Shown: piece after piece, positions 33,272-36,447 of the stretch
Layout: each line of letters opens with the position of its first letter
Position numbering within the stretch: the first letter of the stretch is position 1
Source of the DNA: Cellulophaga algicola DSM 14237
GTDB taxonomy: Bacteria; Bacteroidota; Bacteroidia; Flavobacteriales; Flavobacteriaceae
DNA length: 64,000 nt
NCBI RefSeq assembly: GCF_000186265.1
Contig: NC_014934.1
Span: forward strand, 3,844,001 to 3,908,000
Reading direction: 5' to 3'
Program-made: the position numbers and the translations under genes
The notes under the pieces: generated by a model
What the model was told of the DNA's origin: nothing
Seen by the model: only the letters and a program-made list of their open reading frames with translations
Databases searched by the model: none

Positions 33272-34696
33272 TTAACAATCACTCAAGAAAACACCTACAG
33301 CTAAGCCACCTTCAGAGGTTTCTTTATATTTAGAGTTCATATCTTTTGCAGTTTCCCACATGGTTTGTACTACTTTGTCTAAAGGAACTTTAGCATCTTT
33401 AGGGTCTGAGCCTAGTGCTAATTCTGCAGCATTAATTGCTTTAATGGCGCCCATAGAGTTACGCTCAATACAAGGTATTTGTACCAAACCACCAATTGGG
33501 TCACAAGTTAAGCCTAAATGATGTTCCATTGCAATTTCTGCTGCCATTAATACTTGTTCGGGGCTACCGCCTAATAATTCAGTAAGCGCTCCTGCTGCCA
33601 TTGCAGATGATACGCCAATTTCAGCTTGGCACCCGCCCATGGCTGCAGAAATAGTAGCTCCTTTTTTAAAGATACTTCCAATTTCTCCAGAAACCAATAA
33701 GAATTTTTTAATATCATCAAAACCTGCTTTATGGTCTTCAATCACTAAATAATACATAAGAACGGCAGGTATTACACCAGCACTACCATTTGTAGGAGCG
33801 GTAACTACACGTCCTAAAGAAGCATTTACTTCATTAACAGCTAAAGCAAAACAGCTTACCCATTGTAAGATTTGTCTAAATTTAACTTCAGTTTTTCTGA
33901 TGGCAGAAAGCCATTCTTGAGGAGATGTATAGGGTTCGCTATCTTTTAATTTTTTATGGATATCAAATGCACGTCTGCGTACATTTAGTCCGCCAGGTAA
34001 AGAGCCTTCGGTATGGCAACCTATATACATACATTCTAACATGGTATCCCAGATGCGATGTAACTCGTGGTCAATTTCAGCATCCGTACGCAAAGAGCGT
34101 TCGTTTTCTAAAACAATTTCTGAAATAATTTTGTTTTCCTTTGAACAAAAGTCTAGCAACTCTACTCCATTTGTTACGGGAAAAGGAAAGGCTTTAAACT
34201 TTTCAATATTTTTCTTAGCTCTTTTTCGCTCTTCTTTTACTACAAACCCACCACCGATAGAATAATACGTATTCTTAATCTTTTTACCCGTGTATAAAGT
34301 GGCTTCAAAAGTCATCCCATTGGCATGGAACGGAAGGAATTCTTTTTTAAAAATTATATTTTTTTCAGGATTAAAGGGAAGTGTACGTTTCCCGCCTAAT
34401 TCAATTCTCTGTTCCTCTTTAATGCGTTGTACGATACTAGTTATATGTTCTATAGGGATATATTCAGGATCTTGTCCAGACAAGCCTAGCATAATAGCAT
34501 AATCCGTAGCATGTCCTTTACCAGTAAGTGATAACGAACCGTAAATAGATACATTTATTTCTGCAACATCTAAGAAGTTTTCACTTTCTTGTAATTCTCC
34601 AATCCATTTTTCTGCAGCACGCCAAGGTCCTAGGGTGTGCGAGCTTGATGGTCCCACCCCAATTTTAAGCATATCAAAAGTACTGATTGACTCCAT
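33272..34696 (-). CDS. sdaA: L-serine ammonia-lyase (iron-sulfur, single chain)
   Basis: A 474-aa enzyme that deaminates serine to pyruvate. The N-terminal beta domain begins SISTFDMLKIGVGPSSSHT; the alpha domain carries the cluster-binding Cys residues in GGCQAEIG, GLTCDPIGG and QIPCIERN. Both domains are in one chain, as in Gram-negative bacteria. It is divergent from umuDC and followed by the 31-aa basic protein gene. Confidence 0.95.
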   Translation of the reverse strand: MESISTFDMLKIGVGPSSSHTLGPWRAAEKWIGELQESENFLDVAEINVSIYGSLSLTGKGHATDYAIMLGLSGQDPEYIPIEHITSIVQRIKEEQRIELGGKRTLPFNPEKNIIFKKEFLPFHANGMTFEATLYTGKKIKNTYYSIGGGFVVKEERKRAKKNIEKFKAFPFPVTNGVELLDFCSKENKIISEIVLENERSLRTDAEIDHELHRIWDTMLECMYIGCHTEGSLPGGLNVRRRAFDIHKKLKDSEPYTSPQEWLSAIRKTEVKFRQILQWVSCFALAVNEVNASLGRVVTAPTNGSAGVIPAVLMYYLVIEDHKAGFDDIKKFLLVSGEIGSIFKKGATISAAMGGCQAEIGVSSAMAAGALTELLGGSPEQVLMAAEIAMEHHLGLTCDPIGGLVQIPCIERNSMGAIKAINAAELALGSDPKDAKVPLDKVVQTMWETAKDMNSKYKETSEGGLAVGVFLSDC

Positions 34697-34773: not shown

Positions 34774-34812
34774 GGATAATATCCATTAATTAGGAATATA
34801 TCCATATTTTTG
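34774..34812 (+). promoter_or_regulatory. Twin palindromes and -7 element of the umuDC promoter
   Basis: GGATAATATCC (34774-34784) and GGAATATATCC (34793-34803) are two imperfect palindromes with centres 19 bp apart. They cover the expected -33 region and abut the consensus -7 element TATTTTTG at 34805-34812. The ATG comes only four bases later. They are the obvious candidate for a damage-responsive repressor site; no LexA-type consensus is assumed. Confidence 0.6.
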
Positions 34813-34816
34813 CATC

Positions 34817-35185
34817 ATGGAACTATTTTCTCACGGAAAAATTAAAAAAGCAGAAAAGCGTCATGCGCCTGAAGTATCAAAACAAACTGGATTTCCAAGT
34901 CCCGCTACACATTATTTAGAACCTTCTATCAACCTAGAGCAGGAACTTATTAGCAATGGCGATGCAACTTTTTATGTGCGAATAGATAGCGATGAATTGG
35001 CAGATTTTGCTATTTATAAACATGATGTTTTAATTATAGACCGTTCTTTTTATCCGAAGGAAAATAATTTAGCGCTAGTTATTGTAGAAGGGCAATTTAA
35101 GGTTATTCGGATTCCGCCTAAACAGACACAAGAAGAATTTACCCTGTGGGGTGTAATTACTTATATAATACATTCGTGCAAATGA
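34817..35185 (+). CDS. umuD: UmuD-like protein without the catalytic Ser/Lys dyad
   Basis: A 122-aa S24-fold protein aligned without gaps to E. coli UmuD through residue 98: the cleavage region TGFPSPA (E. coli CGFPSPA, site between 24 and 25) is at 24-30. Where UmuD has GDSM with nucleophile Ser60, this protein has SDEL with Glu60. Where UmuD has Lys97 (TVKK), this has Ile97 (KVIR). The loop before the last strand is about 17 residues shorter than in the 139-aa enzyme. So the fold is kept but self-cleavage should be impossible. The promoter (34774-34812) implies a leaderless mRNA. It overlaps umuC by ATGA. Confidence 0.88.
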
Positions 35186-36447
35186 TAGCATTAGTAGATT
35201 GTAATAGTTTTTATGCCTCTTGTGAATTGGTGTTTAGGCCAGATCTTATAGGAAGACCTGTAGTTGTATTAAGTAATAATGATGGATGTATTATTGCAGC
35301 AAATAAAGAGGCGAAAGCGCTAACTAATATCCCCATGTTTGAGCCTGTTTTTAAAATTAAAAAACAGCTGCTAGAACATAAGGTCGTTTTTTTTTCATCG
35401 AACTATACCTTGTATGGAGAAATGTCACAACGGGTGATCAATATTTTAAAGACTTTTTCGGCGCGGGTAGAAATTTATAGCATTGATGAGTCTTTTTTAG
35501 ATTTGAGTGATGTTCCAGAAGAAGAGTTAGAGCAATATGCACATCAAATTAAAGATACTATTTTTAAATATACAGGTTTGCCCGTTGGAGTGGGGATAGC
35601 ACGAACAAAAGTATTATCAAAATTAGCTAATAAAATAGCGAAGAAAGTACCTGATAAAAACTACGTGTGTGTCATCAATTCAGAAAAAGACCGTATAGAC
35701 GCCTTAAAATGGTGTGCTGTTAAAGATGTGTGGGGAATTGGCAGAAAACACAGTGAGCGTGTCATGAAAATTGGTGTGGCTACGGCTTATGATTTTTCTA
35801 AGCTTCCTTTGGCATGGGTTCGTAAAGAAATGACCGTCGTTGGAGAACGTACGTGGCGAGAACTTAATGGAGAAATAGCGATGGACTTTAGTATTGATTT
35901 AAAAAAGAAGAAAGCTATAGGTACGGCAAAATCATTTGGAAAAAAATTATCGGAGTTAGCTATTATAGAAGAAGCATGCTCTTATTATGTGGGCGAAGTT
36001 ACAGAAGTGCTTCGTGCACAAGGTTCTTGCGCAAGTGCATTACAAGTTTTTGTTACCACTAATTACCACAGCAACAAAGACAAGCAATACGCTAATAGTG
36101 TTACGGTACAATTAACTATTCCTACGAATGATACCTTTGTATTAATAAAGGAGGCTAAAAAAGCATTACACCTTATATATAGGTTAGGCTTCCGCTATAA
36201 AAAAGTAGGTGTTAATCTTTTAGGGATTATTCCAGAGCATTATGTACAAGGTAATTTGTTTGAAATTCCATCCGCATCAAAAAGTAAACTAACGAAAGTA
36301 GTAGATAGTTTAAACCTTAAATTTGGAAAATCTAAAGTGTCATCTGCCTTGGTAGGAACCCGAATTAAAGAATGGGAATTGATAAAAGAAGAACGAAGTC
36401 CTAGGTATACAACCCAGTGGAAAGAAATGTTACACATAAAAGGCTGA
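35182..36447 (+). CDS. umuC: Y-family DNA polymerase V catalytic subunit UmuC
   Basis: A 421-aa translesion polymerase. Palm motifs [15 protein letters not shown] and SIDESFLDL hold the catalytic Asp/Glu; [14 protein letters not shown] is the fingers region; [17 protein letters not shown] and a little-finger domain follow; and the tail [12 protein letters not shown] matches the DUF4113 end typical of UmuC. I chose ATG 35182, which forms an ATGA overlap with the umuD stop and begins the canonical MIALVDCN; an ORF opening 36 bp earlier would run through umuD. Full length and apparently active. Confidence 0.95.

Follow-up and report, generated by a model that had tools for sequence, protein, structure and literature searches.

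Cleavage of UmuD is the textbook post-translational lock on the error-prone Pol V. In Cellulophaga algicola, umuC is preceded by a umuD whose product has lost both residues of the catalytic Ser-Lys dyad, which raises the question of how such a polymerase would be controlled. The operon lies in the window, i.e. the whole stretch of 64,000 nucleotides that was analyzed (3844001-3908000 in a genome of 4.89 Mb that is assembled as a single contig and 100% complete).

A UmuD without catalytic residues beside an intact UmuC

The umuD gene (34817..35185, + strand) encodes a 122-aa, catalytically dead S24-type UmuD, and its stop codon overlaps the start codon of umuC (35182..36447, + strand; 421 aa) as ATGA. 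UmuC was found to be intact, as the initial annotation had stated: the IMS, IMS_C and DUF4113 domains are present, and so are the catalytic residues D6, D101 and E102 and the QxxLF clamp motif. In a phmmer comparison with E. coli UmuD (8gmt, E 1.7e-12), residues 23-105 of the window UmuD matched the same positions of the E. coli protein with no gap. The gap-free alignment that had been claimed holds for this part, but not for residues 1-22, which were unaligned by phmmer and gapped by MAFFT. Both the phmmer alignment and a direct residue count placed E60 on S60 and I97 on K97 of E. coli UmuD, which confirmed the replacement of the two catalytic residues.

The protein matched PF00717 at 28.5 bits (cut-off 23.3) although the S24 Ser-Lys dyad is absent, so that passing the Peptidase_S24 cut-off does not guarantee that a protein can cut. 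The match to NF007621 (84 bits) was under the cut-off of 110. In the AlphaFold model the core was confident and had five strands, compared with seven in a cleavable-type control, and the confidence of the arm was low in both models (38-49 in blocks of the dead form, 47-61 in the control). The top Foldseek matches were UmuD' (1umu, 1ay9), followed by UmuD and LexA, all with high rmsds. By these relationships of sequence and predicted fold, the window protein can be regarded as a UmuD.

The dead UmuD and its partner UmuC form clades within Flavobacteriaceae

The window UmuD was searched in 299 genomes of the family, its own included. A match was present in 170 genomes, in two separate groups. 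The first, here called dead-type, comprised 32 genomes, again with its own, in which the match was near full-length with an E value of at most 3e-27. The next match had an E value of 2.8e-18, and the majority of the weaker matches listed ended near residue 100. The UmuC matches split likewise, with 31 at 524 bits or more and then a fall to 385 bits; the 32nd dead-type partner (L015) is truncated where its contig ends and was left out of the UmuC tree and residue counts. In a tree of 66 UmuD sequences the 32 dead-type proteins formed one clade (support 0.999), and in a tree of 64 UmuC sequences their 31 partners did so too (support 1.0), with the partners of cleavable-type UmuD falling outside. 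The umuD gene stood directly before umuC in 32 of 32 dead-type loci, including the one with the truncated UmuC.

Among named genomes, at least 38 dead-type loci (L084-L121) were found within the best 80 of 558 matches, labeled as Flavobacteriaceae, Flavobacteriales, Bacteroidia or by genus. The genera among the matches listed were Aequorivita, Ulvibacter, Mesonia, Maribacter, Cellulophaga, Leeuwenhoekiella, Dokdonia and others. A class-wide search drew few Flavobacteriaceae, and its best outside match (L172) was cleavable-type. No phage or plasmid record reached 60% identity (one search covered the best 5000 records), and a recent mobile origin of the dead umuDC thus finds no support in these comparisons.

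In the window, an L-serine dehydratase gene (33272-34696) is divergent to umuD, and in the short flanks that were fetched, an sdaA homologue occurred at 17 of 32 dead-type loci and at 15 of the 38 named loci but at no cleavable-type locus, which likewise gives no support to a recent mobile origin. At one dead-type locus (L036, G236:C1:4264451-4265710) UmuC is read with one in-frame TGA. In about 18 of the family genomes, counted by eye (e.g. G017, G034, G040 and G262), a cleavable-type UmuD match was accompanied by only weak UmuC matches, and a UmuD that lacks a umuC partner may be frequent in Flavobacteriaceae.

Loss of the dyad, the cleavage bond and the hairpin

Residues were scored in 60 distinct dead-type proteins, window UmuD included, i.e. 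the 32 of the first set and 28 further, non-identical named ones. For comparison 37 non-dead loci (L037-L073) were taken, a non-random sample mostly from the tops of the match lists; 33 of these gave a UmuD reading frame, and L043, L046, L051 and L070, which gave UmuC only, are absent from the cleavable-type UmuD set. Ser60 was found in 7 and Lys97 in 3 of the first 32 dead-type proteins, and in 3 and 5, respectively, of the further 28. Thus 10 of 60 had Ser60, 8 had Lys97 and none had both, whereas all 33 flavobacterial cleavable-type UmuDs had the complete dyad. From cleavable- to dead-type, column entropy rose from 0 to 2.6 bits at position 60 and from 0 to 2.8 bits at position 97.

The cleavage bond is altered as well. 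The residue before the scissile bond, at position 24, was Thr in 60/60 dead-type proteins, compared with Ala (32) or Cys (1) in the 33 cleavable-type ones; the Cys/Ala-Gly bond at 24-25 is therefore absent from the dead type, which has Thr24-Gly25 throughout. Finally, E. coli positions 105-117, with the conserved L-P-N-Y-PI stretch, were gaps in 32/32 first-set and 38/38 named dead-type proteins, and the strand pair (hairpin) that follows Lys97 was missing in all of them (32/32 in the first set). The UmuD fold, annotated as kept, is thus kept only in part.

Since the dyad is lost, Thr precedes the scissile bond and the hairpin is deleted, the impossibility of self-cleavage is strongly supported, and the window UmuD has almost certainly lost this activity. 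The initial annotation had proposed control of the polymerase without RecA-stimulated cleavage of UmuD; the loss of self-cleavage behind that proposal is upheld, but it is not a trait of one genome and extends across the clade.

The dead-type genes appear to be maintained. In five of the six closest dead-type pairs dN/dS was 0.03-0.15 (one of these, L004/L005, with a saturated dS of 1.87). The sixth pair (L030/L032) had a dN/dS of 0.43 on ten changes, and more distant pairs gave values up to about 0.5 and were saturated.

The N-terminal arm and the likely functional state

Loss of cleavage could leave UmuD permanently full-length or permanently UmuD'-like, a choice that the initial annotation had not made, and the N-terminal arm bears on it. 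The 24-aa N-terminal extension is retained at the E. coli length in dead-type UmuDs, with H16 present in 27/32. The arm from Q23 to Y33 (QTGFxSxATHY) was near-invariant except at positions 27 and 29; nearly or fully invariant were Q23, T24, G25, F26, S28, A30, T31, H32, Y33 and E35. Within the extension, however, the composition differs between the two types. Counted by offset from Gly25, position 17 was aliphatic or aromatic in 31/33 cleavable-type vs 3/32 dead-type proteins and position 18 in 23/33 vs 7/32, while position 14 showed a small difference (6/33 vs 1/32). The last 12 residues before Gly25 were 50% hydrophobic in cleavable-type and 17% in dead-type proteins, and the 24-aa extension carried a mean net charge of -1.7 and +2.9, respectively. 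The relatives compared are not independent, and p-values for the arm residues, as for the boxes and the repressor described below, are nominal.

In E. coli, the arm of the UmuD variant T14A L17A F18A (3A) docks weakly, and the variant has been termed a UmuD' mimic (PMC5342242). In a recent model of E. coli Pol V, an arm of UmuD' enters between the UmuC palm and little-finger domains (PMC12926913), and the C-terminal tail of UmuC is described as the major UmuD' binding site (PMC6511836). By eye, this tail reads GTR or GNR..EW.LIK in the UmuCs of the clade instead of SQDL-GRTWKMKQ. Because the arm has lost most of its docking residues across the clade, a UmuD'-like state is favored over a full-length, inhibitory one, and the dead UmuD would be locked in the former.

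The opposite state, in which UmuD always functions as the full-length form, like E. coli S60A, and holds UmuC back or serves as a damage checkpoint factor, so that the polymerase is mostly non-mutagenic, is considered unlikely. The extension has the same length and is partly conserved, so that it may restrain UmuC, and full-length UmuD S60A greatly reduces UV mutagenesis in E. coli (PMC3901139); some probability of full-length inhibition is therefore retained. However, besides the loss of the hydrophobic docking residues, the region that would accept the arm lacks the dyad and the hairpin, and a UmuC that is kept off would hardly retain its catalytic and clamp residues, which were intact in all 31 dead-partner UmuCs examined.

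Cleavage control could also survive if another S24 protein, or an unrelated protease, cut the dead UmuD in trans. Such cutting has a precedent in E. coli UmuD S60A, which is cut by an active partner (PMC5342242), the Thr24-Gly25 bond and TGF site are kept in 60/60 proteins, and a cleavable-type UmuD co-occurs in 6 of the 32 dead-type genomes. In the other 26, however, no second UmuD match was found. The search for a second S24 protease in the C. algicola genome revealed no second UmuD; the two further proteins that matched with an E value of 0.001 or lower were the SOS repressor and one with a helicase-fused domain. The uniform Thr24, where the cleavable type has Ala or Cys, and the loss of most docking residues further argue against cutting in trans, which we regard as improbable. 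The helicase-fused domain is an S24-type match at the C-terminus of a protein that appears helicase-like on inspection (L002 1300-3228).

A shifted catalytic pair is very improbable. Ser58 and Lys95, which could restore cleavage, both occur in the window UmuD, but Lys95 was found in 13/32 and Ser58 in 5/32 dead-type proteins, 15/32 have no Ser anywhere at 56-63, and the hairpin is missing in all 32. Sequencing error or a decaying gene, to which the substitutions themselves and the dN/dS of L030/L032 might point, is in effect ruled out by 60 distinct proteins that share the loss of the dyad in one well-supported clade, by tight coupling to umuC and by the low dN/dS of the five other pairs.

SOS boxes, repressor and transcriptional control

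Upstream of umuD, TATTTTTG (34805..34812, + strand) fits TAnnTTTG, which we take to be the consensus of the Bacteroidetes -7 element, and ends 4 nt before the ATG. This spacing supports the assigned start codon and thereby the presence of the 24-aa extension. TAnnTTTG ended 3-5 nt before the ATG in 24/32 dead-type loci. Two putative SOS boxes precede the element: a distal one, GGATAATATCC (34774..34784), and a proximal one, GGAATATATCC (34793..34803), which lies 19 bp from the distal box and one base before the -7 element. Their motif, GGA-N5-TCC, was taken from a study according to which Bacteroidetes lack a canonical LexA, phage-repressor-like S24 proteins run the SOS response, Flavobacteriaceae use mainly GGA-N5-TCC, and a umuDC operon is already listed as a putative member of that regulon (PMC8565304).

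Counted by operon, GGA-N5-TCC occurred within 150 nt of 25/32 dead-type operons, 21 of them with two boxes, whereas mononucleotide shuffling gave an expectation of 0.2/32. Boxes also lay ahead of 21 of the 28 further dead-type loci. Control by CTAA-N5-TTAG was rejected (0/32 within 150 nt). In the C. algicola genome the paired-box pattern was found in four places, namely at the repressor gene, umuDC, a Y-family polymerase gene and a UvrD-type helicase gene; this is with the pattern loosened once, and the stricter version had three matches, none of them at umuDC. The reversed control pattern had no match in this genome. A DnaE-like reading frame, so named by inspection, follows the boxed Y-family polymerase gene.

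The SOS repressor of C. algicola (L001) has 251 aa with HTH_3 and S24 domains, and on inspection it retains the residues for its cleavage, in AAG-Y, GDSM and VKK. A strong orthologue (at least 299 bits) was found in 25/32 dead-type genomes, and one of at least 274 bits in 6/33 cleavable-type genomes, two of which (G263 and G144) also carry the dead type. In this non-random sample, the dead form is found mostly in repressor-bearing genomes. For the comparison of repressor and boxes three dead-type genomes (64-76% complete) were set aside. Among the remaining 29, a box lay within 150 nt in 23/25 genomes with the orthologue and in 0/4 without it. At a limit of 350 nt, set after inspection of G227 (single box at -164) and G236 (pair at -328/-309 before a small reading frame), the figures were 25/25 and 0/4.

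Four near-complete genomes with a dead-type umuDC thus have neither a strong repressor orthologue nor boxes; three of them do encode lower-scoring homologues of the repressor, at 77-108 bits and 32% identity. These orthologue-less genomes, G125, G193, G294 and G091, also carry a cleavable-type UmuD (L164 5438-5875, L165 5688-6128, L166 5466-5906 and L167 60-500), and no umuC was seen in the fetched flanks, that of L167 being cut by a contig end.

Cleavable-type operons were boxed in 4 of 33 cases (G263, G144, G174 and G257), all in repressor-bearing genomes, which amounts to 4/6 with the repressor and 0/27 in the others. The idea that boxes distinguish the dead form (25/32 vs 4/33) was therefore rejected, as they follow the presence of the repressor. 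Since they do not follow the dead state, transcriptional SOS control is taken to be common to both UmuD types; SOS transcription would be shared with the cleavable-type operons of repressor-bearing genomes, and the dead form would have lost only the second, proteolytic lock. For the window umuDC, SOS induction is predicted from the boxes and the repressor gene.

Reading frames of about 90 aa were seen directly before umuD at L117 (2188-2463), L114 (2189-2458), L116 (2183-2455) and L036 (reverse strand), each preceded by two GGA-N5-TCC boxes. Of two tested, one had no Pfam match and the other had a sub-threshold match to PSP1 (E 0.023).

Proposed explanation: a Pol V operon with a pseudoprotease UmuD

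Our preferred explanation is a clade-specific Pol V operon with a pseudoprotease UmuD that is in a UmuD'-like active state and subject to transcriptional control only. We give it a probability of about 0.63, lowered from 0.66 because the boxes follow the repressor and not the dead state. UmuD would need no RecA-stimulated cleavage. Cleavage of the SOS repressor would allow the dead UmuD to be made, and its undocked arm could then interact with UmuC much as UmuD' does. The remaining lock would be SOS control of transcription, probably together with RecA loading of UmuC.

More tentatively, the uncut extension might be a positively charged working arm that is needed for lesion bypass near the UmuC active site or DNA, with the repressor alone in control; we consider this possible, but doubtful. 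If true, the lineage would have rebuilt Pol V around a peptide that other bacteria have to remove from UmuD, and would have given up the proteolytic lock on mutagenesis. A conserved natural clade in which this lock was dropped in three ways at once, with a polymerase clade of its own and an altered arm, offers a comparison for the purpose of cleavage, for its necessity in mutagenesis and for the reach of control by transcription alone.

Relation to known systems

The dead UmuD resembles E. coli UmuD/UmuD' of Pol V in residues 23-105, in UmuD' as best fold match, in the umuD-umuC order and in the arm that follows residue 24. Unlike E. coli UmuD, it lacks Ser60 and Lys97, has Thr24 for Cys24, is 17 residues shorter, with E. 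coli positions 105-117 missing, and its extension arm is basic, where that of E. coli is hydrophobic. The cleavable-type UmuDs of the same bacterial family have an adjacent umuC in 28/33 cases. In contrast to the dead type, the order is umuC-umuD in 15 of these 28 operons (L044, L045, L048, L055, L057-L061 and L063-L068), the reverse of E. coli.

The nearest precedent for a putatively cleavage-free UmuD is the phage protein HumD, which has no N-terminal extension. Like the dead type, P1 HumD (L181 198-587) and N15 gp26 (L182 198-584), both UmuD' homologues, lack Ser60 and have His there in the alignment; the P1 database record states that HumD functionally complements UmuD'. The phage proteins differ in that they start at Met-Gly25, whereas the dead UmuD keeps 24 aa before this position, and in that they keep Lys at 97; P1 HumD also has a Ser one position from 60. 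The 754 bases fetched around P1 humD contain no umuC annotation, while the dead-type umuD is part of a chromosomal operon with a UmuC clade of its own.

Self-cleavage was also lost, and the protein kept, in the S24 family member LexA of Synechocystis, which lacks the nucleophile and the cleavage bond (PMC2921402). That LexA is a transcription factor, whereas the dead UmuD is a polymerase subunit. The non-canonical LexA regulon of Bacteroidetes (GGA-N5-TCC) has a umuDC operon as a putative member, and the parts of that study covered here are silent on a loss of UmuD catalysis (PMC8565304). Among the open-access papers listed, no description of a catalytically dead UmuD in Flavobacteriaceae was found.

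A further dead UmuD-like reading frame was observed before umuC in a Caldisericia MAG (L141 2390-2827). It is without Ser60, Lys97 and the hairpin, a Met stands three residues ahead of a 10-residue stretch, and it is possibly an independent, HumD-like case.
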